Of a DNA stretch of 64,000 bases, positions 18,301 to 39,544 are shown in pieces. The DNA is from Granulicella sp. WH15 (GTDB taxonomy: Bacteria > Acidobacteriota > Terriglobia > Terriglobales > Acidobacteriaceae). The notes beneath the pieces were generated by a model, which searched no databases, was not told the origin of the DNA, and was given only the letters and a program-made list of their open reading frames with translations. The DNA lies in assembly GCF_009914315.1 (NCBI RefSeq), contig NZ_CP042596.1:1240001-1304000 (forward strand). Direction: 5' to 3'. The translations under genes were made by a program, and so were the position numbers. Numbering within the stretch: the first letter of the stretch is position 1; every line of letters begins with the position of its first letter.

Positions 18301-18406
18301 CGGCATAGATGCCTGTCAGGGTAAGGATGGCGAGGAAGAAAAAGATGGGCTTGGCGGCCCGGGTGAGCCAGAAGTTTTTGTCTTCAGCGGGCGTGAGGGC
18401 GCTCAT
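15290..18406 (-). CDS. RND efflux permease (inner-membrane pump subunit)
   Basis: This 1038-residue protein is the proton-driven pump subunit of a tripartite RND exporter. It has the standard layout of 12 helices with two large periplasmic loops. Helix 4 carries the proton-relay residues in GLAAAIGLVIDDAIVVVENV; the double Asp is typical of the HAE drug-type branch rather than the heavy-metal branch, although overall length and the loop GSNLLPEMDEGAFILDYTM recall CusA/CzcA relatives. Substrate is unknown. The adaptor gene lies immediately upstream, its stop overlapping this start in TAATG. The 3' end overlaps the convergent secreted-protein gene. Confidence 0.95.
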   Translation of the reverse strand: MSALTPAEDKNFWLTRAAKPIFFFLAILTLTGIYAAFQVPISVFPDTNFPRVVIGIDNGVMPVEQMQVLLTKPIEDAVNSVPGLLTVRSTTSRGSAEISLFFDWNVDMFRTLQLTDAALSKISSELPSTAKITTNRLTFATFPIVGYALTADDRGPQTISQTALWQLATYNLKPPLNRVNGVSTVIVQGGQVPEFHIVPDPARLQATGVTLLDIVNAVQASNIIDSPGLYQADHQLILGLVGAQAKDVESLSQLVVKTTPGGSPVRISDVGTIGPAALPIYTMVDADGKPSVLLNIARQPSSNTVSVATAVAAEVDRLRKTLPPGVHLTPFYDQSELVRASISSVRDAILIGLVLACLILFLFLRDWTSSLVAGLVIPVTVAITILFLWAIGQSFNLMTLGGLAAAIGLVIDDAIVVVENVVVHRDAGQSRADAVRLALREITTPLIGSTITPVVVFLPLVAVSGVTGSFFRALAITMTAALLTSLLLALTFTPALSLSLLRKHDGEAPRHHDDNGPIMSRVHAVHTKALNWTLTRSWALVAIAAVLIVAGYFAYNGLGSNLLPEMDEGAFILDYTMPAGSSLETTNRVLTHVEKILHDTPEVSITSRRTGLQLGLAAVTEANYGDISVRLKPNRDRAIDEVIADVRAKVNKAEPALDVEFTQVLEDMIGDLSNSPEPIQIKLFSTDANLIHTLAPRVQAAIASIPGIVDTQNGVDNTLSGPATNFTVDPAVASRLGFTPQEIAEDATSLLDGLLATTPVIVDGRPYTVRVRMSDEHRASLSAISNTVFNSASGHTATLGALAQITELPPQNEIRRENLQQVVLVSGRLEGTNLGGAMTQVKQAVANLNLPASVRVEYGGTYQEQQKSFADLARVLLLALALVFGVLLAEFRNFSAPIAILTSSVLSIAGVVFALLITRTDFNVASFMGLIMVIGIVAKNGILLLDADERARAEGASALDAMIHAAQRRLRPIIMTAVAAMCGMLPLAFAFGAGSQMLQPLAISVIGGLVISVGLSLIVTPAMYYRLTSKSHSTQPSA

Positions 18407-19677
18407 TACTTGCCCCCTTCTTTTTTGTCCGCCGGATCGTCTTCCTTAGCCTCGGCGGGGCCGATCTTGACCTTGGTGCCGTCGTCGAGGCCGTAGCCGC
18501 CGCCGATGATGACGTTGTCGTCGGGCTTGAGGCCGTCGACGATCTGGGTGGTCTCCTCGGTCTGGATGCCGACGGTGACGGGGCGCTTCTTGGCGGTGCC
18601 GTCGGAGGCGATGACCAGGACGAACTTGCCGGGGGCTTCGGTGGAGCGCTGCACGGCGTCGGTGGGGATGAGCATGGCCTTCGGGATGGTGAGGCCCTCG
18701 AGCGTGGCGTGGAGCGGGGTTCCGGCCTTGAGCCTGCCGTCCTTGTTGGGGACGCTTAGCCAGACCTCGACCGTGGTGCTGCCGGGGTCGAGCGCGGGGC
18801 TGATGAGGGAGACCTTGGCTTCGACGGGCTTGTCGAGGCCGGGCACGGTGAGGGTGGCGGGCGAGCCGACCTCGAGCCGCTGCGCCTGGGCCTGCGAGAG
18901 GTGCAGCTTGGCGAGCAGGGTGGAGGTGTCCATGATGGTGAGGATGGGCGCGCCGGGCGCGGCGGTCTCGCCCGCGAAGAGGGGACGGTCGGTGACGACG
19001 CCGGAGATGGGGGTGCGGATGTTGGTGTAGCTGAGCTGGGCTTCGGCGCCGAGGTACTTGCCCTTGGCGGAGGCGAGCTGGCCCTTGGCGGTCTCGAGCG
19101 AGGAGGTGGTGCCTACTTTGGCGAGTGCGTCAAAACGCTGCTTGGCGATGTCGTAGGCGGCCTGGGCCTGAACCGCCGTGGTACGGGCGGTGTCGAGGTC
19201 GCGGCCGGGGATGGCTCCCTGAGAGAAGAGCTGCTGGCGGCTGGCCAGGATGCTGTTCTGGAGGTCGAGCGTGGCCTTGGCCTGGCTGAGGTCGAGGCGG
19301 GCGCGGGTCTGGTCCTCGGGCACGGTGGAGAGCGTGGCGGCGTTGTAGGTGGCCTTGGCCGCGTCGTAGGCTCCGCCGTTGTCGATGGCGGCGGCGGCGA
19401 GGTCGCTGTTCTCGAGCACGGCTACGAGCTGGCCCGCGGAGACGTGGGCTCCGCGCTGGACGTAGAGTTTCTTGATGGGCGCGGTGATCTTGGGTACGAT
19501 GGCCGCCTGGGCGACGGGGGCCAGGGTGGCGTCGCCGGTGATCTCCTCGGTGATGGTGCCGGAGGTGGGGTGCTCGGCCTGCACGATGGCTTCGGGCTTG
19601 GCGGTGTCGTCGGCTGCCTGCTTGCAGCCGGTCAGGAGGAGGCCGATCGAGAGAAGTGGGAGGGAGAGGTTTTTCAT
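18406..19677 (-). CDS. RND periplasmic adaptor lipoprotein (membrane fusion protein)
   Basis: The 423-residue product is the periplasmic adaptor of the pump. The N terminus is a lipoprotein signal (MKNLSLPLLSIGLLLTGCKQ, lipobox LLTGC). A barrel-sandwich hybrid begins KITAPIKKLYVQRGAHVSAG, a helical hairpin about residues 130-215 contacts TolC, and the returning lipoyl half reads NIRTPISGVVTDRPLFAGET. Beta-barrel and membrane-proximal domains follow, and the tail is rich in Lys, Asp and Glu. It sits between the TolC and permease genes with almost no spacing, so the three genes form one operon. Confidence 0.95.
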   Translation of the reverse strand: MKNLSLPLLSIGLLLTGCKQAADDTAKPEAIVQAEHPTSGTITEEITGDATLAPVAQAAIVPKITAPIKKLYVQRGAHVSAGQLVAVLENSDLAAAAIDNGGAYDAAKATYNAATLSTVPEDQTRARLDLSQAKATLDLQNSILASRQQLFSQGAIPGRDLDTARTTAVQAQAAYDIAKQRFDALAKVGTTSSLETAKGQLASAKGKYLGAEAQLSYTNIRTPISGVVTDRPLFAGETAAPGAPILTIMDTSTLLAKLHLSQAQAQRLEVGSPATLTVPGLDKPVEAKVSLISPALDPGSTTVEVWLSVPNKDGRLKAGTPLHATLEGLTIPKAMLIPTDAVQRSTEAPGKFVLVIASDGTAKKRPVTVGIQTEETTQIVDGLKPDDNVIIGGGYGLDDGTKVKIGPAEAKEDDPADKKEGGK

Positions 19678-19680
19678 GGG

Positions 19681-21051
19681 CTAGAAGGTTCCCGTCAGGA
19701 TCTGGAGGTTGGCCAGCGCGAGCTGGTAGCGGACGGTGCCGTCCTGGGCCGCAAGCTCGGCGGCGGTGAGGGAGCTTTGGGCGTCGACGACCTCGAGGAC
19801 TGTGGCCTCGCCAGCGGTGTAGCGCAGGCGGGTGAGGCGCAGGCTCTCGCGCGCGGTGGCGACGCTGAGGCCGAGGGAGTCGAGCTGGTCGTGGGCCAGG
19901 GCGGCCTCGTTGTAGAACTCTTCGAGGTCGGCGATGAGCTTGCGCTGGATGTTGGTGAGGACGACCTTGGCGGCGTCGCGCAGGATGTGGGCCTGCTTGA
20001 CGCGGTGCTGGGTGGCGAACCAGTCCCAGACGGGGACGTCGAGCGTGGCCGAGGCGGAGTAGCCGAGGTTGCGGACGCCCTCGGGGCCGTTGGCGGCGAA
20101 CTGCGCGGCGTCGATACCGTAGCTATAGTTGAGCGCGAGGTCGGGCAGGTAGGCGGCGCGGGCGGCGGTGATGCCGAGATCGGCGGCGTGGAGACTGGCC
20201 AGGGCGCTGCGCAGCTCGGGGTTGTTGGCGGAGGCGGCGGTCTCGACGTCGGCGCGGGAGGCTAACGGCTTGGGCGCGGGCAGCTCGACGGTGTAGGGCG
20301 AGCGCGGGTCGGGGAAGAGCAGGACGGCCAGGTCGAGGCGGGATTTTTGGGCTTGCAGTTGGGCGTCGGAGAGGTCGCGCTGGCGCTGCTGCAAGGTCAG
20401 GTCGGCCTTGATGACGTCGGCGTGGGCGGACTCGCGGGCGTCTTCGCGCTGGCGGGTCTGCTTCGAGAAATCGGCGGCCTCGGCGGCGGCGCGGGTCTCG
20501 ATGGTGACCTTGCCCTGGGCGGTGGTGGAGGCGTAGAAGAGGCCGATGACGGTGGCGGTGAGGCCGCGGCGGCTGATCTCCAGCTCGGCGGCGGCGACGG
20601 CGTTGGCCGCGTCGGCGCGGGAGACGGCGTTGACCTGGGCGAGGCCGATGGTCTCGTTGACCTGGGCCTGGCTGACGTACTCGTGGACGGTGTTGTTGGC
20701 GATGAAGCGTGGAGCGGACTGGCTGCCCGTGGAGCCAGCCTGGTTGGTCGCGCCGTTGGCCTGGGTAAAAAGATACTGATTGTGATACACAACCGACGGC
20801 AGCAGGGCCGAGCGGGCGATGGAGCGATCGAGCTGAGCGGATTTGCTGGCGGCGAGTGCGGCGGCGAAGCCGGGCTCGTTGGCGCGGGCCAGTGCGAGGG
20901 CTTGGTCGAGCGTGATGTCGGGCGCGGAGCTGGTGGCCGAAGTGAGAGAGCTGGTTTGGGACGGGCCTGTCTGTGGTGGTGTGGTCTGGGCCAGAGCGGA
21001 AGAGGCCAGCGATACCGTGGTGAGGATTGCGAGTTGGGGAAGTAGCTTCAT
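19681..21051 (-). CDS. TolC family outer-membrane efflux channel
   Basis: The 456-residue product has a signal peptide (MKLLPQLAILTTVSLASSAL, cut near ALAQ) and the two tandem OEP repeats of TolC proteins. Repeat 1 begins DITLDQALALARANEPGFAA, and repeat 2 has LRLTRLRYTAGEATVLEVVD with AQSSL near the end. It supplies the outer-membrane duct for the RND pump encoded just downstream, three bases away. The gene is separated from the YncE-like gene by about 200 bases holding a repeat and a hairpin, so it may have its own promoter or be processed separately. Confidence 0.95.
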   Translation of the reverse strand: MKLLPQLAILTTVSLASSALAQTTPPQTGPSQTSSLTSATSSAPDITLDQALALARANEPGFAAALAASKSAQLDRSIARSALLPSVVYHNQYLFTQANGATNQAGSTGSQSAPRFIANNTVHEYVSQAQVNETIGLAQVNAVSRADAANAVAAAELEISRRGLTATVIGLFYASTTAQGKVTIETRAAAEAADFSKQTRQREDARESAHADVIKADLTLQQRQRDLSDAQLQAQKSRLDLAVLLFPDPRSPYTVELPAPKPLASRADVETAASANNPELRSALASLHAADLGITAARAAYLPDLALNYSYGIDAAQFAANGPEGVRNLGYSASATLDVPVWDWFATQHRVKQAHILRDAAKVVLTNIQRKLIADLEEFYNEAALAHDQLDSLGLSVATARESLRLTRLRYTAGEATVLEVVDAQSSLTAAELAAQDGTVRYQLALANLQILTGTF

Positions 21052-21128
21052 AGAAGTTCTTTAGAGAATAAAGATGTTGTTTTGCCGGGCGGTCACGGCT
21101 GCGTGTTTGTGAGCATTGATGCTGGTTC

Positions 21129-21169
21129 TACCCTGCCCATGTGCGATAAAGCTGCGCATGGGCAGGGTA
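21129..21169. repeat. Covarying hairpin element, copy 1
   Basis: TACCCTGCCCATG at 21129-21141 pairs perfectly with CATGGGCAGGGTA at 21157-21169 over a 15-base loop ending GCTGCG. A similar hairpin with compensating base changes lies at 26438-26476. It is located upstream of the tolC-like gene, next to repeat copy C. Confidence 0.7.
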
Positions 21170-21179
21170 TCCGGTTTCG

Positions 21180-21258
21180 AATATGCTCGCTGCCGACCAA
21201 CGGGAGGCACTCAGAAGATCATCCTGCCCATACCGCAACGAGAACGGTATGAAGTACC
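21180..21258 (-). repeat. Dispersed intergenic repeat, family 1, copy C
   Basis: On the minus strand it begins GGTACTTCATACCGTTCTCG directly after the expected stop of the YncE-like gene and ends GGTCGGCAGCGAGCATAT. It matches copies at 1871-1946 and 6086-6161. Confidence 0.85.
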
Positions 21259-22282
21259 CTAGCGGCCGACGACCAGGACGGTGAAGGTGCCGGGACGGGA
21301 TTGGGCGCGACTTGTGGCCGGGTGTGGCCGGTGCGGGGTTGGGGGAGAACTTCGCGGTGACGGTGTAGAGCTTGCCGGTGGCGGCGTCGAAGGTCATGGT
21401 GCGCGCGCCCTTCATGGTGGTGAGGTTCTGCACCACGGGGAAGCCGGGTTTGGCGGTGTCGATGACGGTCATGGTGCCGTCGCCGTTTGAGGAGAAGACC
21501 AGTTTGGACTTGGGATCGAAGCTGGTGGCGTCGGGGTCTGCGCCGATGGTGGGGGTGGCGAGAGACTTGCCGGTGTGGATGTCGGTGACGGCCATCTTGT
21601 TGCCGTCGCACACGGCGAAGAGGCGTCCGGCGGCGCGGTCGAAGGACTGGCCGGAGGGCGATTCGCAACCAGCGAGCGGCCAGGTGGCGGTGACCTTCTG
21701 GGCCTTCGCGTCGAGGCGGACTACGGAGTTCTTATCCTCAATGTTGACGAAGACGGTGCCCTTGTCGTCGGTGACGGGAAACTCGGGTTTGCCGGGAAGG
21801 GCTACGAGGCCAATAGCCTTGCGCTGGTTTACGTCGATGACCGTCGCGTTGTGGCTGGTGCCATTGAAGGCCCAGAGGGTGCCCGTGGAGCGCTCGAGGA
21901 CCATGCCGTCGGGGTTGGTGCCTGCGGGGATCTTGGCGAGTGTGGCCAGGCTGGTGGTGTCGAAGACGACTACGTTGTTCGCTCCGCCGTCGGAGATGAA
22001 GCCGGTCTTGCCGTCGGGCAGGATGACGATGCCGTGGCAGCGGGTGAGGCCGTCGATGGAGCCGATGGCTTTGCCGGTGGTGGTGTCGACTACATCGACC
22101 TTGGTCTGGTGGGCGATGTAGAGGCGGTGCGCGCTGGAGTCTACGGTGAGGTAGTCCCAGCCGCCGTCGCCGCCGATGACCCAGCGCTGCTCGACCTGGA
22201 AGGGCTTCTGCGCGAGGGCGCTGGAGGCGGCGAGCGGAGCGCCGATGCAGAGGGCAATGAGGAGAGAGCGGACTTTCGACAT
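21259..22282 (-). CDS. YncE-like beta-propeller secreted protein with a C-terminal frameshift
   Basis: The product has a signal peptide (MSKVRSLLIALCIGAPLAAS, cut after ALAQ) and YVTN/YncE-type blades with recurring units such as AHQTKVDVVDTTTGKAIGSI and ISDGGANNVVVFDTTSLATL. Proteins of this type bind ligands or DNA in the periplasm; function is otherwise unknown. The start at 22282 is chosen for the signal peptide. The open frame continues to 21128 through repeat copy C. A one-base frame change near 21300 instead gives PGTFTVLVVGR and a TAG at 21259, the usual family ending, so a frameshift (real or a sequencing error) is likely. The gene follows the sensor kinase gene on the same strand. 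Confidence 0.75.
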
Positions 22283-22341
22283 GAACTGAGGCTCCGTGGC
22301 GCATGGTTGACTGCGCATGATCGTTACTATCGCAGGAGCAG

Positions 22342-22358
22342 CTTAACCGAGCCTTAAG
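22342..22358. promoter_or_regulatory. Candidate response-regulator box upstream of the YncE-like gene
   Basis: CTTAAC-CGAGC-CTTAAG on the plus strand has two hexamers spaced by five bases, the layout of PmrA/QseB-type boxes. It overlaps the stop codon of the sensor kinase and lies 60 bases upstream of the YncE-like start. A related box is upstream of the response regulator at 24548-24564. Confidence 0.5.
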
Positions 22359-23823
22359 AATGCAGGGTTTTTGTGGCGTATTCGGTCTCAAGTGGGGCCG
22401 ACGCGAGTGGCAGCGTGACGATGGCGGTGGTGCCTGCGCCGGGTTTGCTCTCGAGGCAGATCTCGCCGTGAAAGCGCTGCACGATGGCCTTGACGATGGA
22501 GAGGCCGAGGCCGGTGCCGCCGGTGCGGCGGCTGCGGGAGGCGTCGCCGCGATAGAAGCGGTCGAAGACGTGGGGGAGGATCTCGGGGGCGATGCCCTCG
22601 CCGTCGTCTTCGATGCGTAGCTCGGCGATGTTGTCGTGAGTGTCGACGATGGCGCGGATCTCGCTGTCGTGCGGGCTGTGTTGCAGCGCGTTGTGGATGA
22701 GGTTGGAGCAGAGCAGGTGCAGGCGCTCGGGGTCGATGGCGGCGAAGACCGGCTGGGTGGCGTGGATGCTGAGGGCGATGTGCGAGACCTTGGCCAGCGT
22801 GCGGAAATGCTCGGTGACGTCGTGTAGGACGCTGACCAGATCGACAGGTTCGGGGGCTGCTGGGGCCTGCTGCTGGCCTTCGAGTTCGCGGCCTTCGAGG
22901 CCAGCTAATGTGAGCATGCTGGCTACGAGGTACTCCATACGTTCGCAGTCGATCTGGATGCGTTCGAGGCCCTCCTCGTACTCCGCGACGGAACGGCTGC
23001 GCATGGTGAGGAGCTGGAGCGAGGACTTGAGGACGGCTACGGCGGTCTTCAGCTCGTGGGCGGCGTCGCTGACGAACTGCCTCTGCTGGGCGAAGGCACG
23101 CTCGATGCCGCTGAGGGCGGCTTCGAGCGCGTTGACCAGCGGCGCCAGCTCGCTGACGTTGCGCGCGGGGCTGGCGTGGTCGAAGGTCCAGGAGTTGACC
23201 GAGACCTGCGAGGCCTGGGCGGCCAGCTCATGCAGCGGGGCGAGGCCGCGGCGCAGCACGTAGAACATCAGGAGGCCGGAGACGAGCATGAGCAACAGGC
23301 TGGTGAGGGAGTAGAAGCCGACGGCGCGGCCGATCAGCTCCCAGACAGGGTGCGTGGGCGTGCCGTAGAGGATGGTGATGTGGTGAGGATGGCCGCCGCC
23401 CTTTTCGCCGGGATCGACGATGCGCACGCCTTGTTTGAAGATGATGCGGTAGTTCTTGTCGTGGACGCGGAGGTCGCGGATCTCGCGAGTGTCTTTGCTG
23501 GCGAGGGTGCTGTTGAGGACCTGTTCGGCGTCGGGCCAGTTGTGGACGCCGAGCACGCGACCGAACTCGTCGCGGACGATATAGATGTCGCGGTGCGGGG
23601 CGAAGTTCTGAGTGCCGTCGAGCATGACGTTGTCGGAGACATCGTCGGCGTCCTGCACGGCCCCCAGCAGGGAGTCGGCGCGGCCGCGCAGCATGACGTC
23701 GAAGGCGTGGAAGTCGGAGACGCCCTCGTAGATGCCCGCGATGGCGACTAATGCCAGGGCGGAGCATAGCTCGACCAGCAAGACGGCGATGATGAGGCGG
23801 CGGGTGAGGGAGTAGGGCTTCAC
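22354..23823 (-). CDS. Sensor histidine kinase (OmpR-type system)
   Basis: This 489-residue inner-membrane kinase has two transmembrane helices (about residues 10-30 and 163-190) bracketing a periplasmic sensor domain of about 130 residues. A HAMP-like linker follows, then the phosphoacceptor His256 in VSDAAHELKTAVAVLKSSLQ and an ATPase domain with N box LIHNALQHS and G boxes GEGIAP and GGTGLGLSIV. The sensor domain contains a His-rich stretch GEKGGGHPHH near residues 139-148, which may bind metal; this is inference. Its start overlaps the response-regulator stop by four bases. Overall it is like QseC/PmrB. Confidence 0.95.
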   Translation of the reverse strand: MKPYSLTRRLIIAVLLVELCSALALVAIAGIYEGVSDFHAFDVMLRGRADSLLGAVQDADDVSDNVMLDGTQNFAPHRDIYIVRDEFGRVLGVHNWPDAEQVLNSTLASKDTREIRDLRVHDKNYRIIFKQGVRIVDPGEKGGGHPHHITILYGTPTHPVWELIGRAVGFYSLTSLLLMLVSGLLMFYVLRRGLAPLHELAAQASQVSVNSWTFDHASPARNVSELAPLVNALEAALSGIERAFAQQRQFVSDAAHELKTAVAVLKSSLQLLTMRSRSVAEYEEGLERIQIDCERMEYLVASMLTLAGLEGRELEGQQQAPAAPEPVDLVSVLHDVTEHFRTLAKVSHIALSIHATQPVFAAIDPERLHLLCSNLIHNALQHSPHDSEIRAIVDTHDNIAELRIEDDGEGIAPEILPHVFDRFYRGDASRSRRTGGTGLGLSIVKAIVQRFHGEICLESKPGAGTTAIVTLPLASAPLETEYATKTLHS

Positions 23824-24524
23824 AGATCCGGGTCCTCGTCGACGATTGGCTTGTCGATGACGAGGCGGTAGCCGCGGCCGCGCAGGTTCTCGATGCTGGA
23901 GTGCTTGACTCCCTCGTCGAGCTTGCGCCGGAGGTTGGAGACGTGGGCCTCGATGACGTTGGAGTGGTGCTCCCAGTTGTAGTCGTACATGTGCTCGAGT
24001 AGCTCGCGCTTGGAGACGACGATGCGCGGGCGGTGCATGAGGTACTCGAGGATGCGGTACTCCATGGGGGAGAGCAGGATGGGGCGTCCGGCGCGGAGGA
24101 TGGTCTGCTCGGCGGTGTTCAGGGTCAGGTCGCCGAGCTGGAGGGTGGGGGTGGCGACGCCTTTGCCGCGGCGGATGAGGGCCTTGGCGCGGGCGATCAG
24201 CTCGCCGAGGTCGAAGGGTTTGCTGAGGTAGTCGTCGGCGCCATCGTTGAGGAGCTGGATGATGGATTCGCGCTCGCTGCGGGCGGTGAGGACGAGGACG
24301 GAGATGTGGTTGCCGCGGGAGCGCAGGCGGCGGAGGATGGTGGCTCCATCAACCAAGGGAAGCATTAAATCGAGGATGATGAGGTCGTAGCAGAGGTTGC
24401 CAGCCAGATCGAGCGCGGTGCGGCCGTCTTCGGCGTGGTCGACGGCAAAGCCGGGGCCTTCTCGCAGCGCATGGGCTACGTTCTCGGCCAGTCTCAACTC
24501 GTCTTCTACAAGCAGTACGCGCAT
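23820..24524 (-). CDS. OmpR-family response regulator
   Basis: The 234-residue regulator has a receiver domain with phosphoacceptor Asp52 (DLIILDLMLPLVDG) and conserved Lys in YLSKPFDLGELIARAKALIR. The C-terminal winged helix is of the OmpR/PhoB type (LSPMEYRILEYLMHRPRIVV, VEIAH replaced by IEAHVSNLRRKLD). It is the first gene of a unit containing the kinase and probably the YncE-like and RND pump genes. A box resembling PmrA/QseB sites lies upstream at 24548-24564, so autoregulation is likely. Confidence 0.95.
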   Translation of the reverse strand: MRVLLVEDELRLAENVAHALREGPGFAVDHAEDGRTALDLAGNLCYDLIILDLMLPLVDGATILRRLRSRGNHISVLVLTARSERESIIQLLNDGADDYLSKPFDLGELIARAKALIRRGKGVATPTLQLGDLTLNTAEQTILRAGRPILLSPMEYRILEYLMHRPRIVVSKRELLEHMYDYNWEHHSNVIEAHVSNLRRKLDEGVKHSSIENLRGRGYRLVIDKPIVDEDPDL

Positions 24525-31121: not shown

Positions 31122-34100
31122 TTAGATGACAGCTCCATCGTCGGGTGTCGCGGTGCTTGCGGTTACAGGGCCTTTGCCCTCGAAGAAGGCGTAGACGGCT
31201 GGAACGAGTAAGAGCGTGAGTGCTGTTGAGCTGACCAGGCCGCCGATCACGACGATTGCGAGTGGACGCTGGATCTCCGAGCCGGGGCCGGTTGCAAAGA
31301 GAAACGGCACTAGCCCGAAGGCCGCGACGGTTGCGGTCATCATCACGGGCCGGAAGCGGAGACGCGCTCCTGTACGGACGGCCTCATCCTGCGACATGCC
31401 CTCCTCGCGCAGCTTGCGGATGTAGGAGACCAGCACGACGCCGTTCAGCACAGCGATGCCCCAGAGTGCGATGAAGCCTACGGAGGCGGGCACGGAGAGG
31501 TACTCGCCCGAGAGGAAGAGCGCGATGACGCCGCCGATGGAGGCAAGCGGCAGCACCGTGATGATGAGGGCGGCGAAGCGCAGGGAGCCGAAGAGGACGA
31601 AGAGCAGGAAGAAGATGGCGGCGATGGTGATGGGCACGATGATGAGCAGATGGTGGAGCGCGCGCTCCATGTTGTGGAACTGGCCGCCCCACTCGATGAA
31701 GTAGCCGGGCGGGATAGCGACTTGCTTGCTGACCTTATCTTGCAGCTCAGTGACGAAGCCGCCGAGGTCGCGGCCCTGCACGTTGACGCCGACTACGATG
31801 CGGCGCTTGCCCATGCTGCGATTGATGAGGGCTGGGCCTTCTACAACTTTTACGCGGGCCAGGTCCTTCAGCGGAACGCGAGGGCCATCGGGAGAGCTGA
31901 TGAGTAGCTCACGGATGTCTTCGACGCTGTCCCGCAGCGATTGCGGGAGACGCACGACTGCCTGGAAGCGGCGTTCGCCCTCGTAGATCTCCGTGGCGGA
32001 TTTGCCCGCGATGGCTGTCTCGATCATGTCGTTGACGTCGGCGGCGTTGATGCCGTAGCGTGCGACCTGATCGCGATCGATGTCGATGGTCAGGTACTGC
32101 TGGCCACCGACGCGGTCGACGCGGGTGTCTTGTGTGCCCGAAATGCTGCTTGCTACCTTGGCGATTTCATTGGCCTTCTCGACTAATAGATCGAGGTCGT
32201 CGCCGTAGAGCATGACGGCCACATCGGCACGAACGCCGGAGACCATCTCGTCGACGCGGTCGCTGATGGGCTGCGACATGACGAGGTTGATGCCGGGGAT
32301 GGAGACGAGGCTCTGGCGCATCTGCTCGGCGATCTTGTCCTGCGTCATGCCGTGGGGGCGTTTGTCGAACGGTGTTAGAGATGCGAGCACATCGGCTTCG
32401 TTGGGACCGGCAGGGTCGGCGGGGGATTCGCCGCGGCCTACGCGGGAGACGACGTTCTCTACGCCGGGTACCTGCAACATGCTCTTCTGCATGGCCATCT
32501 CCATCTTCAGGGACTCGTCGAGGGAGATGTTGGGGACGCGGTCGGCGTTGGGGGAGAGGGTGCCCTCCTGCATCTCGGGGATGAAGGCCGTGCCGAGGAG
32601 TGGGAAGAGGCAGAGAGCGGCGATGAAGAGGGAGAGCACGGCGAGCACCATGCTCCGGCGATGATTGAGCGCCCAGTGCAGCATGGCGTTGTAGGGCCTG
32701 CGCAGGGTGCGGACGACGAAGGTGTCAGCTTCGGAGCCGCCCTTGAGCAGGTAAGACGACAGTACGGGCGAGAGCGTGAGCGAGAGGATGAGCGAGATGC
32801 CAAGCGCGATGGCGATGGTATAGGCGAGGGGTGCGAACATCTTGCCCTCCATGCCTTCGAGCGTCATGAGCGGGAGGAAGACGAGGATGATGATGGTGAC
32901 GCCGAAGAGGACGGGCGTGGCTACATCTGTAACTGCTGAGAGGACGATGGAGAGCTTTTGGGCTGTGGTGGTTTTGCCGTGATTGAGATGGTTGGCGTGG
33001 CTTAATTTTGTGAAGACGTTTTCTACTACTACGACGGATCCATCGACCATCAGGCCGATGGCGATGGCCAGGCCGCCCAGAGACATCAGGTTTGCGGAGA
33101 GGCCGATCTGGTTCATGATGAGGAAGGTCAGCAGCGGTGTGACGATCAGGGTTGCGCTGACGATGAGGCTCGAGCGGATATCTCCGAGAAAGAGCACCAG
33201 GACGATGACGACGAAGATGACGCCTTCGCCGAGCACCTCGGTTACGGTGTGGATGGCGGCGTCGACGAGCTGTGAGCGGTCGTAGTAAGGCTTGATCTCA
33301 AGGCCGCCGGGGATCATGTGCTTAGCGTTGATCTCGGCGACGCGCTCTTTGACGCGGCCGACGATCTCTTTGGCGTTGCCTCCGCTGGTCATCAGGACGA
33401 CGCCGCCTACGGCTTCGGTGTTGCCGTTCTTGATCATGGCTCCGTAGCGGACTTCGGCGTCGATGAGAACCTCAGCCACATCGCGGATGCAGATGGGAGT
33501 GCCGCCGGTTTCTTTCAGGACGATGTTGCGAATGTCGTCTAGATCGCGAACGAGGCCCACGGAGCGGACGAGATATTGCTCCGCGTGTTGGGGCAGGATG
33601 CCTCCGCCTGCGTTGGCGTTGTTGCGCGCCAACGCGTTGCGTACGTCCATGATCGTCAGGTTGTAGTAGTGCAGCTTTTGGGGATCGACGCGGGCGTCGT
33701 ACTCCTTGACGTAGCCGCCGGTGGAGTTGATCTCGGCGACTCCGGGGATGGAGCGCAGCAGGGGGCGTACGACCCAGTCTTGGAGGGTGCGGCGCTCGAT
33801 CAGCTCTTCGCGCGTGAGTGCGTGATTGCCGTCGTTCGGCAGCTCGAGCGTGTACTGATAGACCTCGCCCAGCGCGTTGGTGATGGGGCCGAGCACGGGG
33901 CTTACGCCTTCGGGCATGCGGTCGCGCAGTTCGGAGAGGCGCTCGGAGACCATCTGGCGCTCGAGGTAGAGATTGTTGCCGTCGGCGAAGACGAGCGTGA
34001 TGAGCGAGAGTCCCGGCTTGTTGAGAGAACGCATGTCCGTCATGCCGGGGAGGCCCGTCATTGCTATCTCAATCGGAATGGTGACGAAGCGTTCGACCTC

Positions 34101-34277
34101 TTCGGGGGATTTGCCGGAGGCCTCTGTGGCTATCTGGATCTGGACGTTGGCGACGTCGGGAAAGGCATCGACCGAGAGGTGTTGTGCGGCGTTGAGGCCG
34201 AAGCCGACGAGCACCAGCGCTACCACGACGAGGATGAGGCGTTGCCGCAGCGCGCCCGCGATGATGGACTGCAACAT
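31122..34277 (-). CDS. Heavy-metal-type RND efflux permease (CzcA/CusA family)
   Basis: This 1051-residue pump subunit has the heavy-metal RND pattern in helix 4: SLGGLAIAIGLMVDGSVVVV followed by ENVF, with a single Asp and a Gly-Ser, unlike the double Asp of drug pumps. The N terminus (LSVDAFPDVANVQIQIATEA) and FIPEMQEGTLSPNADRVPNI are typical of CzcA. The metal is not determined by sequence alone. It is last in a three-gene operon after TolC and adaptor genes, two bases from the adaptor stop. The operon is divergent from an NtrC-type two-component system, which likely regulates it. Confidence 0.95.
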   Translation of the reverse strand: MLQSIIAGALRQRLILVVVALVLVGFGLNAAQHLSVDAFPDVANVQIQIATEASGKSPEEVERFVTIPIEIAMTGLPGMTDMRSLNKPGLSLITLVFADGNNLYLERQMVSERLSELRDRMPEGVSPVLGPITNALGEVYQYTLELPNDGNHALTREELIERRTLQDWVVRPLLRSIPGVAEINSTGGYVKEYDARVDPQKLHYYNLTIMDVRNALARNNANAGGGILPQHAEQYLVRSVGLVRDLDDIRNIVLKETGGTPICIRDVAEVLIDAEVRYGAMIKNGNTEAVGGVVLMTSGGNAKEIVGRVKERVAEINAKHMIPGGLEIKPYYDRSQLVDAAIHTVTEVLGEGVIFVVIVLVLFLGDIRSSLIVSATLIVTPLLTFLIMNQIGLSANLMSLGGLAIAIGLMVDGSVVVVENVFTKLSHANHLNHGKTTTAQKLSIVLSAVTDVATPVLFGVTIIILVFLPLMTLEGMEGKMFAPLAYTIAIALGISLILSLTLSPVLSSYLLKGGSEADTFVVRTLRRPYNAMLHWALNHRRSMVLAVLSLFIAALCLFPLLGTAFIPEMQEGTLSPNADRVPNISLDESLKMEMAMQKSMLQVPGVENVVSRVGRGESPADPAGPNEADVLASLTPFDKRPHGMTQDKIAEQMRQSLVSIPGINLVMSQPISDRVDEMVSGVRADVAVMLYGDDLDLLVEKANEIAKVASSISGTQDTRVDRVGGQQYLTIDIDRDQVARYGINAADVNDMIETAIAGKSATEIYEGERRFQAVVRLPQSLRDSVEDIRELLISSPDGPRVPLKDLARVKVVEGPALINRSMGKRRIVVGVNVQGRDLGGFVTELQDKVSKQVAIPPGYFIEWGGQFHNMERALHHLLIIVPITIAAIFFLLFVLFGSLRFAALIITVLPLASIGGVIALFLSGEYLSVPASVGFIALWGIAVLNGVVLVSYIRKLREEGMSQDEAVRTGARLRFRPVMMTATVAAFGLVPFLFATGPGSEIQRPLAIVVIGGLVSSTALTLLLVPAVYAFFEGKGPVTASTATPDDGAVI

Positions 34278-34279
34278 GC

Positions 34280-35473
34280 TTAGTTGCCTCCCTTGATCGC
34301 GTTCTGCTTGCGTTGATTGTTCAGGTGGAAGGCTCCGTCGAGCACGATGGATTCATCGGCGCGGAGGCCGCCTTCGAGCACTCTTCGGTCGTCGGTTTCG
34401 GTTCCGAGTGAGACCTCGTGAAGCTTGAATTTATTGGGCATAAGCTGCACGAAGACGTACTCCTTGTTGTCTTCGCGTACGACTGCTGTCTGCGGAACGG
34501 TGAGCTTCTGCTCGGTGTGGCCGGTAAAGGTCATGCTGGCTAGCTGGTCGGGTTTGTAGAGGCCGTGTGGGTTGGTGACGTCGATGCGCACCTGGACGGT
34601 GCGGGTCGCGGGATCGACGATGGGCGCTACATAAGAGAGCCTGCCGGTGATCTTTTCCGCTGGTAGTGCGGGGATCTGGACCGTGACCTCGAGGCCGCGG
34701 CGGAGTTGGCCTGCGTCCTCTTCGGGGACGTTGGCTACGATCCATACGGTGGAGAGATCGGCGATGGTGAAGGCTGGGTCGGCTGGCTGCACTACCTGCC
34801 CGATGGTGATCTTGCGCTCGAGTACCTCGCCTGCTTTGGGGGAGAGGATAGAGTAGTCCGCGCTTAGCTCGCGTGTGCTGACCAGTCGCTGGATCTGGGC
34901 GTTGCTCATGCCGAGTCCGCGGAGCTGGGTGCGGTCGGATGCGGCCTCGGTGCTTGCCTGGAGCAGCTCGGCCTGGCGGCGCTCCAGCTCGGCGCGGCCG
35001 ATGACATCGGAGGCGACGAGCTGTTCGGCTCGACGGGTGGCTGCTTCGGCGAGGCTCTGTTGCGAGACTGCTTTGATAAGTGCGAGTTGAGCTGCTGAAA
35101 GATCGGTGCTGTGCAGGGTCGCGAGTACTGTGCCGGAGCGAACGCTCTGGCCTTCGAAGACCAGGAGGTTGAGGATCCGTCCGGCTACGGGGGAGCCTAC
35201 GCGTGAGATGCGGCTGGCATCGGTCTCGACGTGGGCGGAGACCTTCAGCAATCCTTTTACGTCGTGCATCTCGGGCTTGCCCAGTTTGAGGTTGGAGGCC
35301 AGGGCTGGGGTTACTTCGATCTCGTAGGGATCACTTGAGATAGCTGTGGATGCTGCGATGGCTTGCTTTTTGCAGCCTGTGGCGGGAAGAAGCAGCAGCA
35401 GGATGCAGAAGGTGCAAGGGAAAAGATGCTTTGCGATACGGGCAGGTAACGAGATCATTTGGGAAATCATCAT
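34280..35473 (-). CDS. RND periplasmic adaptor lipoprotein (CzcB/CusB-like)
   Basis: The 397-residue adaptor has a lipoprotein signal with lipobox LPATGC near residue 34. The lipoyl-like motif VGSPVAGRILNLLVFEGQSV precedes a helical hairpin of about residues 110-170, and the second half returns with ILSPKAGEVLERKITIGQVV. Barrel and membrane-proximal domains follow (FTIADLSTVWIVANVPEEDA). There is no obvious Met-rich N-terminal metal site as in CusB. The start overlaps the TolC gene stop by four bases, and the permease follows after two. Confidence 0.93.
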   Translation of the reverse strand: MMISQMISLPARIAKHLFPCTFCILLLLLPATGCKKQAIAASTAISSDPYEIEVTPALASNLKLGKPEMHDVKGLLKVSAHVETDASRISRVGSPVAGRILNLLVFEGQSVRSGTVLATLHSTDLSAAQLALIKAVSQQSLAEAATRRAEQLVASDVIGRAELERRQAELLQASTEAASDRTQLRGLGMSNAQIQRLVSTRELSADYSILSPKAGEVLERKITIGQVVQPADPAFTIADLSTVWIVANVPEEDAGQLRRGLEVTVQIPALPAEKITGRLSYVAPIVDPATRTVQVRIDVTNPHGLYKPDQLASMTFTGHTEQKLTVPQTAVVREDNKEYVFVQLMPNKFKLHEVSLGTETDDRRVLEGGLRADESIVLDGAFHLNNQRKQNAIKGGN

Positions 35474-36732
35474 GGCCTTCTTCCAGGCGCAACTGCGCCG
35501 AGTTCTTCAAGGTCGATCAATGCTGATTGACGCGCATACTGCGCATCGAGGAGGTCACCGCGAACACTTTGTAGAACACGCTGTGCATCCAGGACCTCAA
35601 CGATGCCGCGCTCGCCGAAGCGATAGGCCGCCTTGGCCGCATCGACGGCACTCTCTGCGGCGTGTAGCTCTCCTGACTGGAGCGAGGTTACCTGCTGGTC
35701 GGCTAGCTGGTACTGCTCAAAGGCGCGTTCCACTGCGGAGATCAGCTCGAGACGGTGTGCTTCAAGCTCGGCCTGGGTCTGCAAGATGGTTGCCTTCGAC
35801 TCGGAGATCTGGCCGCGACGGCGATCCCAAAGAGGCAGGGGAACTGTGACGCCGGTGCGCCAGTAGCGGAGATCGGGCTGATTCTCAAACTCGGCAAAGA
35901 TCGTTGGCCGAGGGATGCGCAGTTTGCGTTCATGCTCGAGGGCGGCTTCGGCGGTCTGTATGTCGGCCTGCGATTTGGCGATAGCGGGGTGAGTGTTCAG
36001 TACCAGCTCGCGTAGTTCGGTTAGCGGTGGAAGGTGAAGGCGATCTTCAAGGGAGCCGCGTGGATCGAGGTTCGAATCCGCTGGTGCGGCTATGGCTACG
36101 CGCAGCAGGGCGATGGCGTTCGATAGCTCGAGCTGCGTGCTGCGAAGGGCAAAGCCCGCGCGTGCCTGTTCGGCCTCGGCTCGTGTCAGCTCGAGACGGC
36201 CCTTTTCGCCTACGGTTACTTCGACCTCGACGCGATGCCTGAGGTCTTCGACCAGTTGGAGGTTTTCGCGGGCTTGCTCTATTTCTTCGCGGCGCCGGAG
36301 GACGTCGTAGAAGGTGCGCTCGACCTCGGCGGCGACGGAGCGTGCTACTCCGGCTTCGCCCTGACGGCTGCTGATGGCGGCCAACTGCGCGGCGTGCAGG
36401 CGGGCGCGGCGCTCGGATGGGATCTCGATGGGCTGGTAGGCCGCATAGTGTTGCAGCAGTCCGGGGACTCCGGGCGTGGCGATGGGACGCGCGTACTGGT
36501 GCCCGGCGTAGACCTCTACTGAGGGGTTGGTGTAGGCGCGGGCGGTGAGGGTGGCCGCGTCCGCACGCGCGGTGATGGCGGCTGCGCTGTGCAGGCGCGG
36601 GCTGTTGTGCTCGGCCATGGCGATGGCGTCTTCGAGCGTGAGGACCTGTGGAGGGGGCGGTGGGGTGCTCGTCTGTGCCGGGACAGCGCATGGCAGCAGT
36701 AAGGCTAACGTCGTAAGTGTAAAAAGCTTCAC
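35470..36732 (-). CDS. TolC family outer-membrane channel (CzcC/CusC-like)
   Basis: The 420-residue product has a signal peptide (MKLFTLTTLALLLPCAVPAQ) and two OEP repeats, the first beginning VLTLEDAIAMAEHNSPRLHS and the second near YRFGERGIVEVLDAQRVLQS. It forms the outer-membrane duct of the metal pump and is the first gene of the operon. A sigma-54-like promoter, TGGCGATCGAGTTGCC on the minus strand at 36744-36759, is so close to the ATG that the transcript would be leaderless or nearly so. This is either unusual or a reason to doubt the promoter. Confidence 0.93.
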   Translation of the reverse strand: MKLFTLTTLALLLPCAVPAQTSTPPPPPQVLTLEDAIAMAEHNSPRLHSAAAITARADAATLTARAYTNPSVEVYAGHQYARPIATPGVPGLLQHYAAYQPIEIPSERRARLHAAQLAAISSRQGEAGVARSVAAEVERTFYDVLRRREEIEQARENLQLVEDLRHRVEVEVTVGEKGRLELTRAEAEQARAGFALRSTQLELSNAIALLRVAIAAPADSNLDPRGSLEDRLHLPPLTELRELVLNTHPAIAKSQADIQTAEAALEHERKLRIPRPTIFAEFENQPDLRYWRTGVTVPLPLWDRRRGQISESKATILQTQAELEAHRLELISAVERAFEQYQLADQQVTSLQSGELHAAESAVDAAKAAYRFGERGIVEVLDAQRVLQSVRGDLLDAQYARQSALIDLEELGAVAPGRRP

Positions 36733-36743
36733 GCTGGTGCTAA

Positions 36744-36759
36744 GGCAACTCGATCGCCA
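36744..36759 (-). promoter_or_regulatory. Candidate sigma-54 promoter for the metal RND operon
   Basis: TGGCGATCGAGTTGCC on the minus strand matches TGGC-N7-TTGC, with GG and GC separated by the exact ten bases required at -24/-12. The predicted transcript start falls at about 36733, next to the TolC ATG at 36732. Confidence 0.5.
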
Positions 36760-36806
36760 AACGTAATTGTGCTGAAACCTGGAGATTTATGCAGATGGGC
36801 CGGATG

Positions 36807-36826
36807 GGTGTCCCATATGGAACACC
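36807..36826. promoter_or_regulatory. 20-bp near-palindrome, candidate activator site for the NtrC-type regulator
   Basis: GGTGTCCCATATGGAACACC is an inverted repeat with one mismatched pair. It lies between two outward-facing sigma-54-like promoters, about 84 bases upstream of the left and 118 upstream of the right predicted transcript start. That spacing suits an enhancer site for a bacterial enhancer-binding protein. Confidence 0.6.
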
Positions 36827-36907
36827 GCGGGTTGGTTTGAGGACGCAAAAAGGACAGCGGCGGCGTTTCGGGAGGCGTATTGAATGAAATTGGCGTACCC
36901 GGTGGAT

Positions 36908-36923
36908 TGGCGGTTGGATTGCA
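36908..36923 (+). promoter_or_regulatory. Candidate sigma-54 promoter for the two-component operon
   Basis: TGGCGGTTGGATTGCA matches TGGC-N7-TTGCA with the exact ten-base spacing between GG and GC. The predicted transcript start is about 36934, giving a leader of roughly 58 bases to the ATG at 36993. Confidence 0.55.
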
Positions 36924-36992
36924 CGCATCGCAGGGGTGCATGCCTATGCCCCCATCGCGCTAGTCCCTGTGTCCGCGTGGCAGAATGTGTTC

Positions 36993-38135
36993 ATGCCATT
37001 GCACCGGACTCGCCGAATCTCGCCGCGTCTCCAGGCATCGTTTATCGCGGTGCTGGTGGTGGCGCTCGCCGTCTTTACGTGGATTACGCCGCCGCACGCG
37101 CTGGTGTTGCACAACGTGCTGCATCACCTGAATATTCTGCCCTTCATGCTGGCGGGGCTGCTCTTTGGCTGGCGTGGGGCGCTCAAGACGCTGCTCTTTG
37201 CCACGGTATTGCTGACGCCTTCGATTCATAGGCACTGGTATAGGGAGCCGCTGGATGCGCAGGATGAGATCGTCGAGCTGAGTACCTTTGGTGCGGCGGG
37301 GTTGATTGCGGGTGTGCTGGCGGATCGTGAGCGGCTGCAACGGCGCAGGGTGGAGGAGACGAAACAGGAGCTGGAGCAGGTGCACACGGAGCTGCAACGG
37401 AATATCGACCAGATGAAGAAGACCGAGCGACTGACTGCGGCGGGTGAGCTGGCGGCCAGCCTGGCGCATGAGATTCGCAATCCGCTGGCGAGCATCAGTG
37501 GTGCGGCGGGTATTCTGGCGCGCAGGCAGGCGCCGGAGCAGAGCCGTGAAGAGTGCCTGGAGATTCTTACGCGTGAGTCGCAGCGGCTGAATAAGCTGCT
37601 GTCGAACTTTCTCGACTTTGCTCGCCCGCGGGTGCCGCGCTTTCAGTGGACGGAGCCGGTTTCGGTGATCCAGTCCGTGGCTGCGCTGGCAAGACACGCC
37701 GATATCTTGAAAGAGGTGGAGCTTGAGTTGGAGATGCCGTCTCGGTTGCGCGAGATCGAGATGGATGCGGAACAGATCAAACAGGTACTGCTGAATTTAA
37801 TCCTGAATGCCGTGCAGGCAACTGAGGGAAGCGGCTCTATCTTGATTCGCAGCTTCATTACTTTAGACAGGTTGTGTGTTGAGGTAAGGGACGAGGGCGG
37901 CGGGATTCCGGAAGAGAATATCCATCGCATCTTCGATCCGTTTTTTACTACCAAGGACAATGGCACAGGGCTCGGACTGGCTGTTGTGGCGAACATCGTG
38001 GCGCAGCACGGGGGCACGCTTACGTGCAGTGGGAATGGAGGGGGCAGCCGCGGTACGACCTTCCGTATGGAGTTGCCCTTCGATCATGCGAAGCTGAGAC
38101 GGATCTCTCTCGATGAGAAGGAGGTGAACCTGTGA
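36993..38135 (+). CDS. Sensor histidine kinase (NtrB/ZraS-type), membrane-bound
   Basis: The 380-residue kinase has a membrane-embedded N terminus with hydrophobic segments at about residues 16-31, 47-60 and 62-77, with a possible fourth near 97-110. A coiled linker follows (about 112-145), then the phosphoacceptor His159 in ASLAHEIRNPLASISGAAGI and an ATPase domain with LLNLILNAVQAT and GTGLGLAVVANIVAQHGG. A cluster of His35, His40, His44 and His45 (PPHALVLHNVLHHLN) lies in the first external loop and could bind a metal ion; this is inference. I prefer the ATG at 36993 over an upstream GTG at 36936, which would be leaderless from the predicted promoter. Its stop overlaps the regulator start in GTGA. 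Confidence 0.9.
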   Translation: MPLHRTRRISPRLQASFIAVLVVALAVFTWITPPHALVLHNVLHHLNILPFMLAGLLFGWRGALKTLLFATVLLTPSIHRHWYREPLDAQDEIVELSTFGAAGLIAGVLADRERLQRRRVEETKQELEQVHTELQRNIDQMKKTERLTAAGELAASLAHEIRNPLASISGAAGILARRQAPEQSREECLEILTRESQRLNKLLSNFLDFARPRVPRFQWTEPVSVIQSVAALARHADILKEVELELEMPSRLREIEMDAEQIKQVLLNLILNAVQATEGSGSILIRSFITLDRLCVEVRDEGGGIPEENIHRIFDPFFTTKDNGTGLGLAVVANIVAQHGGTLTCSGNGGGSRGTTFRMELPFDHAKLRRISLDEKEVNL

Positions 38136-39544
38136 GTAAGAGCCGCATCCTCGTAGTCGATGACGACAGCAGCCTGAGGCGCGTGATGAAGATGCAGCTT
38201 GAGGAGGCTGGTTATGAGGTCTCGCTGGCTGCCGATGGCGAGCAGGGCTATGCGATGCTGCGGGAGCTGCAGCCTGCGCTGGTGATTACAGACCTGCGGA
38301 TGCCGGTGAGTGGGTTGACACTGCTGGGACGGATCGCGAGTGAGGAGATTCAGACTACGGTTATCGTCATTACGGCGTTTGGCACGGTGGAGACGGCGGT
38401 TGAGGCGATGAAGATGGGCGCTTATGACTACGTCACCAAGCCTCTGGACTTCGACGCGCTGGTGCTGATGGTGCATCGTGCGATGGAGCGCCAGAAGCTG
38501 CTGGAAGAGGTTCGCTCGCTGCGCTCGGAGCTGGATCGGCGCTATGGGTTCGAGGCGATTGTGGGCAGGGCTAAGAATTTTCTGCGCGTGCTCAATCAGG
38601 CGGCGCGGGTCTCGCCGCACGATACGACGGTGCTGGTGCTGGGGGAGACCGGAACGGGCAAAGAGCTGATTGCGCGGGCGATTCATCACAACAGCCGACG
38701 ACGGAATAGGGCCTTCGTTGCGATTAGCTGTGGAGCGATTCCGAAGGATCTGGTTGAGTCGGAGTTATTTGGTTATGCGCGCGGCGCGTTTACGGGAGCG
38801 TTGGCGAATAAGCCGGGGCTGATAGAGGCTGCGGATGGGGGGACGCTCTTTCTCGATGAGGTGGGGGAACTGCCGCTGGATGCCCAGGTGAAGTTGCTGC
38901 GCGTTTTGCAGCAAGGCGAGTTGCAGAAGATCGGGGCTACGGCTCCTGTGCCGGTCGATGTGCGTGTGGTTGCGGCGACACATCGTAACCTGGCGGCGAT
39001 GGTGGAGGATGGAACCTTTCGCGAAGATCTCTACTACCGCCTTGCCGTGGTGCCCTTGCAGATTCCGCCGCTGCGGGAGAGGCGGGGCGATATCCCGGAG
39101 TTGATTCAGGCGCTATTCAAGCGGGCTAAGGAGAGGCATGGGTTACTCGATGCGCGACTTTCCTCGGCGGTGATGCAACGGCTCTCTGCGTACCGTTGGC
39201 CGGGTAATGTTCGGCAGTTGGAGAACGTGCTCGAACGTGTGCTGGTGCTTGCCGGGAGCGATCTGATTACGGAAGAAGATCTGCCGGAGGAGTTGCAACG
39301 GACAAAGGCTGGGGCTGGCTCGCTTTGGCTCGATCTGCCGGAGGAGGGGCTTAGTCTTGAGAGCATTGAGAGGGAGCTGATCGGCCGTGCGCTGGAGCGT
39401 TTTGCCGGGAACCAGACCCGCGCGGCGCAGTATCTCGACATCAGCCGACGTACGCTGATCTATCGCATGGAGAAGCATGGACTCACGACAGAGGCAACAA
39501 CGCCGGAAGATGGTTCGAAGTCGGCTGGTGAGCCTGTGGGCTAA
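38132..39544 (+). CDS. Sigma-54-dependent response regulator (NtrC/ZraR family)
   Basis: The 470-residue activator has a receiver domain with Asp54 (ALVITDLRMPVSG) and conserved Lys in YVTKPLDFDAL. The AAA+ domain (about 145-370) has Walker A GETGTGKELIARAIHHNSRR, the sigma-54 contact loop GAFTGA (YARGAFTGALANKPGLIEAA) and Walker B GGTLFLDEVGEL. A Fis-type helix-turn-helix ends the protein (GNQTRAAQYLDISRRTLIYR). An intact GAFTGA shows it acts with RNA polymerase holding sigma-54, matching the two candidate -24/-12 promoters upstream. It starts at a GTG overlapping the kinase stop. ZraR and related metal regulators have this layout. Confidence 0.95.
   Translation: MSKSRILVVDDDSSLRRVMKMQLEEAGYEVSLAADGEQGYAMLRELQPALVITDLRMPVSGLTLLGRIASEEIQTTVIVITAFGTVETAVEAMKMGAYDYVTKPLDFDALVLMVHRAMERQKLLEEVRSLRSELDRRYGFEAIVGRAKNFLRVLNQAARVSPHDTTVLVLGETGTGKELIARAIHHNSRRRNRAFVAISCGAIPKDLVESELFGYARGAFTGALANKPGLIEAADGGTLFLDEVGELPLDAQVKLLRVLQQGELQKIGATAPVPVDVRVVAATHRNLAAMVEDGTFREDLYYRLAVVPLQIPPLRERRGDIPELIQALFKRAKERHGLLDARLSSAVMQRLSAYRWPGNVRQLENVLERVLVLAGSDLITEEDLPEELQRTKAGAGSLWLDLPEEGLSLESIERELIGRALERFAGNQTRAAQYLDISRRTLIYRMEKHGLTTEATTPEDGSKSAGEPVG

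Follow-up and report, generated by a model that had tools for sequence, protein, structure and literature searches.

The region between the genes of a tripartite metal-efflux pump and those of an NtrC-type two-component system in Granulicella sp. WH15 appears, from its sequence, to be a real and conserved sigma-54 switch of known layout, whose unusual twist would be a pair of leaderless mRNAs. The two-component system probably fires two divergent sigma-54 promoters, giving two mRNAs that are both leaderless. A broader reading, to which slightly better than even confidence is given, is that this lineage has sigma-54 promoters hard-wired to leaderless translation: a divergent pair, kept in at least 10 genera and to some extent in a second family, whose expected transcription start coincides with the start codon, which on one side is fixed as GUG.

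Gene organization of the locus

The window (the whole stretch of 64,000 nucleotides that was analysed) shows a pump operon on the minus strand and, divergent from it, a sensor-regulator operon on the plus strand (Table 1). The pump lies far above the TIGR00914 cut-off and is in this respect like the HME-RND pumps ZneA and CusA, to both of which it shows a near full-length match. At the positions that we take to be those of the CusA methionine triad, the pump has Asn, Glu and Glu (alignment by eye), unlike CusA; a divalent metal is therefore likelier than Cu(I), and a Cu(I)/Ag(I) pump is disfavoured. Metal induction of the switch is plausible, given that the pump is of the CusA/CzcA type. The regulator contains a receiver, a sigma-54 AAA+ domain with GAFTGA and a Fis-type HTH, and is thus of the NtrC type; the intact GAFTGA loop reported in the preliminary description was found again in the sequence. 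The membrane part of the kinase, in which Pfam names no domain, keeps the motifs H-x3-H-H and D-x2-D.

Table 1. Features of the pump and sensor-regulator operons and of the gap between them, in window positions.
Feature	Position	Strand	Details
RND pump, CusA/CzcA family	31122..34277	-	TIGR00914, 1117.9 bits (cut-off 701.45)
Periplasmic adaptor, CzcB type	34280..35473	-	PF16576, TIGR01730
Outer-membrane efflux protein, CzcC type	35470..36732	-	PF02321
GTG start of the pump operon	36730..36732	-	leaderless by position; 12 nt downstream of the -12 C
Left -24/-12 promoter (pump operon)	36745..36760	-	TTGGCGATCGAGTTGC; found in 35/35 loci
Main palindrome UAS1, presumed regulator (enhancer) site	36809..36824	.	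16 bp, TGTCCCATATGGAACA
UAS2, weaker second palindrome copy	36841..36856	.	7/12 in the window, better in relatives
Right -24/-12 promoter (sensor-regulator operon)	36907..36922	+	TTGGCGGTTGGATTGC; found in 34/35 loci
Probable GTG start of the sensor kinase	36936..36938	+	leaderless by position; 13 nt downstream of the -12 C
Sensor histidine kinase	36936..38135	+	HisKA, HATPase_c
NtrC-type response regulator	38132..39544	+	PF00072, PF00158, PF02954; GAFTGA intact

The divergent intergenic layout is as first described, for 36732..36993, and only its right edge changes: since GTG 36936, and not ATG 36993, is the most likely start of the sensor gene, the gap proper extends over 36733-36935. The minus strand of the window carries another RND efflux operon (within 15290-24524), with a pump (15290-18406), an adaptor (18406-19677) and an outer-membrane protein (19681-21051); next to it are genes of a kinase (22354-23823) and of a regulator of the OmpR type (23820-24524).

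Divergent sigma-54 promoters

A search in 200 genomes of the family gave 16 orthologues besides the locus itself (55-67% identity), and the pump gene is divergent in all 17 of these first-round loci. A wider search (E <= 1e-100) raised the set to 35 of 398 family genomes, in 10 of 79 genera, and 18 of the 35 loci are fresh, having played no part in forming the idea; the conservation counts given below come from these related, hence non-independent, genomes. A scan of contigs gave two distant kinases.

Both TGGC-N7-TTGC sequences, each aimed at its own gene, are real, at the positions of Table 1. Elements with GG-N10-GC and the -24/-12 consensus, in the proper orientation, were found in 35/35 loci on the left and in 34/35 on the right, L013 being the only locus without a recognisable right promoter. 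The search patterns required TTGG (left) or TGG (right) plus GC, so that a locus without these bases would fail and their invariance is partly by construction. In the aligned gaps of 17 loci both -24/-12 elements and the palindrome stand out from diverged sequence, and the promoter spacers and flanks vary among loci while the elements persist. The single-contig genome of Granulicella sp. WH15 contains one rpoN gene (E 2.4e-57). The core of the three elements is kept in all 35 family loci, and this conservation, together with rpoN, supports the proposal of two divergent sigma-54 promoters with a shared regulator-type site between them.

The preliminary description had also argued from chance, and its quoted rate of occurrence is roughly correct, although by itself the clustering is no more than suggestive: TGGC-N7-TTGC occurs seven times on both strands of the window, dinucleotide shuffles expect 2.63 (sd 1.53), and 1 of 100 shuffles reached seven. 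The pattern TGGCAC-N5-TTGCW with up to two mismatches shows no excess over the whole window (25 found, 26.9 expected). This lack of enrichment of the full consensus is what would be expected if the -24/-12 matches were accidental and the operons controlled otherwise. That explanation is nevertheless highly improbable, since the oriented elements recur in 35/35 loci on the left and 34/35 on the right, beside a sigma-54 activator and between variable spacers and flanks. The promoter pair is thus placed above chance by its conservation in 35 orthologous loci and not by clustering in the window.

Palindromic sites and helical spacing

The near-palindrome between the promoters is present, with an extent of 16 bp (UAS1) instead of the 20 bp (36807-36826) first assigned to it. 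A weaker second copy is also found, and is usual in the other loci at 20-21 or 30-33 bp from the first. With a consensus derived from the first 17 loci, the best 16-mer of each gap matches on average 11.3 of 12 half-site positions in the 35 loci (7.2 in shuffles), and the second-best site 8.5 (6.6 in shuffles); UAS2 of the window, with 7 of 12, is at shuffle level.

Palindrome-to-promoter distances step by about one helical turn. From the palindrome to the presumed left start the distance is 72.5-77.5 bp in 21 loci, 83.5-86.5 bp in 11 and 95.5-96.5 bp in three; all 35 loci were included, and the strongest period is 10.6 bp (R 0.70), with none of 2000 uniform draws equally periodic when the loci are taken as independent. 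The two sites are 20-21 bp apart in 10 loci and 30-33 bp apart in 18 (n=28), and the distance from the second site to the right start is also stepped (n=26, R 0.68), with a single outlier at 110.5. Seven loci whose second sites were distrusted (L006, L008, L102, L104, L106, L112 and L113) were omitted by hand from these last two tests, and L003 and L013 additionally from the second, while L002, L101, L107 and L123 were kept despite second-site scores as low as those of omitted loci. Such stepped spacing is what looping from one face of the helix predicts, and would fit a regulator acting in this way.

At genome scale, TGTNCCATNTGGNACA matches without mismatch at a single place, the gap described here, which appears once per strand; with two mismatches allowed there are 61 rows, versus 39 for the reversed pattern. 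A wider regulon was discarded, no second convincing target of TGTNCCATNTGGNACA being found in the genome, and the system is therefore treated as a local switch. Outside the window, near the contig end, there are two perfect TGTTCCACGTGGAACA palindromes 37 bp apart (G000:C1:4660621-4660636 and 4660658-4660673). They resemble the parS motif, and were set aside as regulator sites.

Start codon of the pump operon

The GTG of the pump operon follows the -12 C by 12 nt in 26 loci and by 13 nt in nine, that is, in 35/35; the count demanded a GTG at 12-13 nt, and any locus without one would have been listed, which none was. When ATG, GTG and TTG were all allowed at the first site from the palindrome, GTG was obtained in 34/35 loci and ATG or TTG in none; the exception, L013, shows a nearer false left site, and GTG follows its true site. 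By 6-nt bins, in-frame start codons fall at 12-17 nt in 33/35 loci, and in 0-13 loci in the other bins. The two misses are L013, owing to the false site, and L113, owing to an apparent frameshift in the pump gene. This frameshift of L113 (genome G369) lies at about residue 37 of the pump outer-membrane gene, and is either real or a sequencing error.

In the window, the GTG is the sole in-frame ATG, GTG or TTG from the stop that precedes it by 19 codons as far as codon 39, and it opens a stretch that looks like a signal peptide by eye. The start codon is at the expected sigma-54 start point in 35/35 loci on the left and 33/35 on the right, which assigns both first genes to the leaderless type by position only; position and conservation are what the leaderless starts are inferred from. 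The preliminary description had held a leaderless left transcript to be a weakness of the left promoter, an objection that finds no support, this geometry being conserved on the left in 35/35 loci and seen again on the right in 33/35.

The aligned loci show no conserved ribosome site before either first gene. The regulator gene, second in its operon, has a strong one (AAGGAGGTGA), so this absence is not general. It bears on the alternative that both operons have ordinary leaders, transcribed mainly from housekeeping-type promoters further upstream, with leaderless sigma-54 starts being minor or stress-only. Such leaders are known from the E. coli counterpart, where they measure 36 and 32 nt. 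However, the columns conserved upstream of each start correspond to the -24/-12 elements, neither start is preceded by a conserved ribosome site and the window pump gene has no other in-frame start, all of which makes the alternative improbable.

Start codon of the sensor kinase

On the right side, an in-frame start codon (ATG in 24 loci, GTG in nine) follows the -12 C at a distance of 11-16 nt in 33/35 loci, or 33/34 of those with the promoter, and the other bins contain 0-9; L003 shows the right promoter and no start codon nearby. The frame of the kinase N-terminus contains no stop in 1311 codons from 33 loci, versus 34 stops in each other frame, and part of this stretch is coding on any reading, because it runs some codons past ATG 36993. 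The N-terminal extension is open in 33/33 loci, and the other frames in 17/33 and 7/33.

The same sigma-54 switch might instead have only its pump transcript leaderless, with ATG 36993 as the start of the kinase and about 60 nt of leader ahead of it, so that the start codon near the right promoter would be incidental or minor. Among the best 120 database matches, where the close kinases are named Granulicella and Terriglobus, many relatives are of 373-381 aa and fit an internal start, although others are of 400-415 aa. Just before the internal ATG there is a conserved A-W-[E/D]-N motif (window 36972-36995), in which the Asn codon is AAT in 29/29 carriers, more than the peptide needs and as if it served an internal start; this invariant AAT is possibly a second start or an RNA or DNA element. 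The narrow bin of start codons in 33/34 promoter loci argues against translation from ATG 36993, as do the extension open in 33/33 loci, even if the counted stretch passes 36993, and the lack in the window of any clear ribosome site upstream of this ATG. Translation from the internal ATG is on balance unlikely, though less so than ordinary leaders, and the GTG at 36936 is kept as the probable start of the kinase.

Distribution beyond the family

In a class-wide search, 27/299 genomes pass 1e-90, nine of them in a second family (43-48% identity). Three of these nine loci (L133, L135 and L140) show the palindrome and starts of the leaderless type, the -24 elements being weak in some: L133 and L140 contain the palindrome, a GTG at 12-13 nt and a pump gene in divergent orientation, and L135, which is interrupted by a contig end, has the palindrome together with a start of the kinase at 14 nt. 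L134 shows only the palindrome, and the remaining five second-family loci neither the palindrome nor leaderless-type starts. Within the family, the six loci of kinases of about 40% identity (L019-L024) have no directed promoter pair.

Comparison with described systems

The zraP-zraSR (hydHG) locus of E. coli and Salmonella is alike in having an NtrC-type pair divergent from its target, two outward sigma-54 promoters and regulator sites between them. The -12 elements are about 168 bp apart in E. coli (one promoter placed by eye) and 177 bp apart here. ZraS has a periplasmic sensor. In blastp, only residues 158-383 of the kinase, its catalytic part, align to E. coli ZraS (234-457), so that the membrane part fails to align and the ZraS-type sensor domain is missing from the alignment. 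Both proteins are below the NCBIfam cut-offs for ZraS and ZraR: the kinase with 208.7 versus 479 bits and the regulator with 367.5 versus 760 bits. Other differences are the target, which is ZraP there and a tripartite pump here, with an outer-membrane efflux protein and not zraP as the divergent gene, the palindromes, and the leaders, of 36 and 32 nt in E. coli (the second by eye) versus about 0-4 nt here by position. Of the description as ZraSR-like, the layout therefore stands, and the likeness of the proteins is limited to the catalytic part of the kinase and to scores below both cut-offs. The switch appears to work like ZraSR, yet it is not filed as ZraSR. The sites of Salmonella zraP-zraSR are at 4388217 and 4388385, according to an extract of PMC3844500, and sigma-54 sites precede genes of ZraR-type regulators in other phyla, as stated in the consulted portion of PMC12316311.

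Bacterial leaderless genes (Zheng 2011 and transcription start maps) are alike in that the start codon is the transcript start, here by position only. In the available extracts, described leaderless genes are placed by a -10 element of the sigma-70 type and for the most part start with AUG; here the elements are -24/-12 and the left start is always GTG. Leaderless genes were predicted with a sigma-70 model in 3/3 Acidobacteria genomes, averaging 13.3% of genes (extract of PMC3160421). All 171 leaderless genes of S. meliloti start with AUG, and GUG is reported to be a poor leaderless start in E. coli, which speaks against a GUG-initiated leaderless pump mRNA, in the excerpted text of PMC3616915 for both statements on AUG and GUG; GTG leaderless starts behind a -10 motif have been published for single genes (PMC12340547, PMC3160421, in extract). 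Leaderless mRNAs and sigma-54 appear in the same paper, unconnected in the passages available, in PMC3616915, PMC3847290, PMC4842269, PMC5243855, PMC12403871 and PMC12340547. Among the open-access literature matches listed, as far as their extracts go, there is no report linking sigma-54 promoters to leaderless mRNAs, no sigma-54 promoter described in Acidobacteriota and, in the literature on metal pumps of this phylum, no such switch.

Proposed mechanism

The membrane sensor kinase, with its conserved histidines, would sense a metal, probably a divalent one, or else an effect of this metal, and phosphorylate the NtrC-type regulator, which would bind the two palindromes midway between the operons. 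Its AAA+ ring would then loop to the closed complex of RNA polymerase and sigma-54 at either flanking -24/-12 promoter. Leftward firing would give the CzcCBA-type pump, and rightward firing more sensor and regulator, a presumed positive autoregulation. Both transcripts are predicted to begin at, or a few nt from, the start codon of the first gene; both first genes would therefore be translated as leaderless mRNAs, the pump operon from GUG.

If so, no mRNA leader would stand between the activator and the first codon, and a long-conserved pair placed by sigma-54, with GUG fixed at one of its two starts, would couple all-or-none activation to leaderless translation. Speculatively, a leaderless pump mRNA may keep the pump being made when ordinary initiation suffers from metal stress. 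What maintains a leaderless start, and whether it needs GUG or only tolerates it, could be tested on a single fragment of 200 bp, and the locus offers a candidate regulator site and switch for Acidobacteriota.

Search for a general leaderless sigma-54 rule

In 60 genomes of the genus there are 298 occurrences of TTGG-N7-ATTGC with a start codon at a distance of 12-14 nt, versus 263 with one at 21-23 nt, the spacing control. The 14 switch loci supply 17 and four of those matches, leaving 281 versus 259, so the spacing of 12-14 nt shows no genome-wide excess beyond the switch locus in these genomes, and a general rule is unproven. The genome of Granulicella sp. WH15 contains 37 consensus-like sites; 30 came with loci, and 23 of these 30 are inside open frames of at least 250 codons. 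Twelve further stretches were picked by eye from the match list for inspection: nine showed nothing, L145 only a 43-codon frame, L152 a further copy of the pump promoter and L153 a permease gene. In L153 (genome G305), at about 2001, the promoter-like TTGGCTCCCGAATTGC is followed by an ATG 10 nt after the -12 C, which opens a 671-codon frame that by eye resembles a permease of the MacB/FtsX type; this genome contains the same match of 40 bases at two places.
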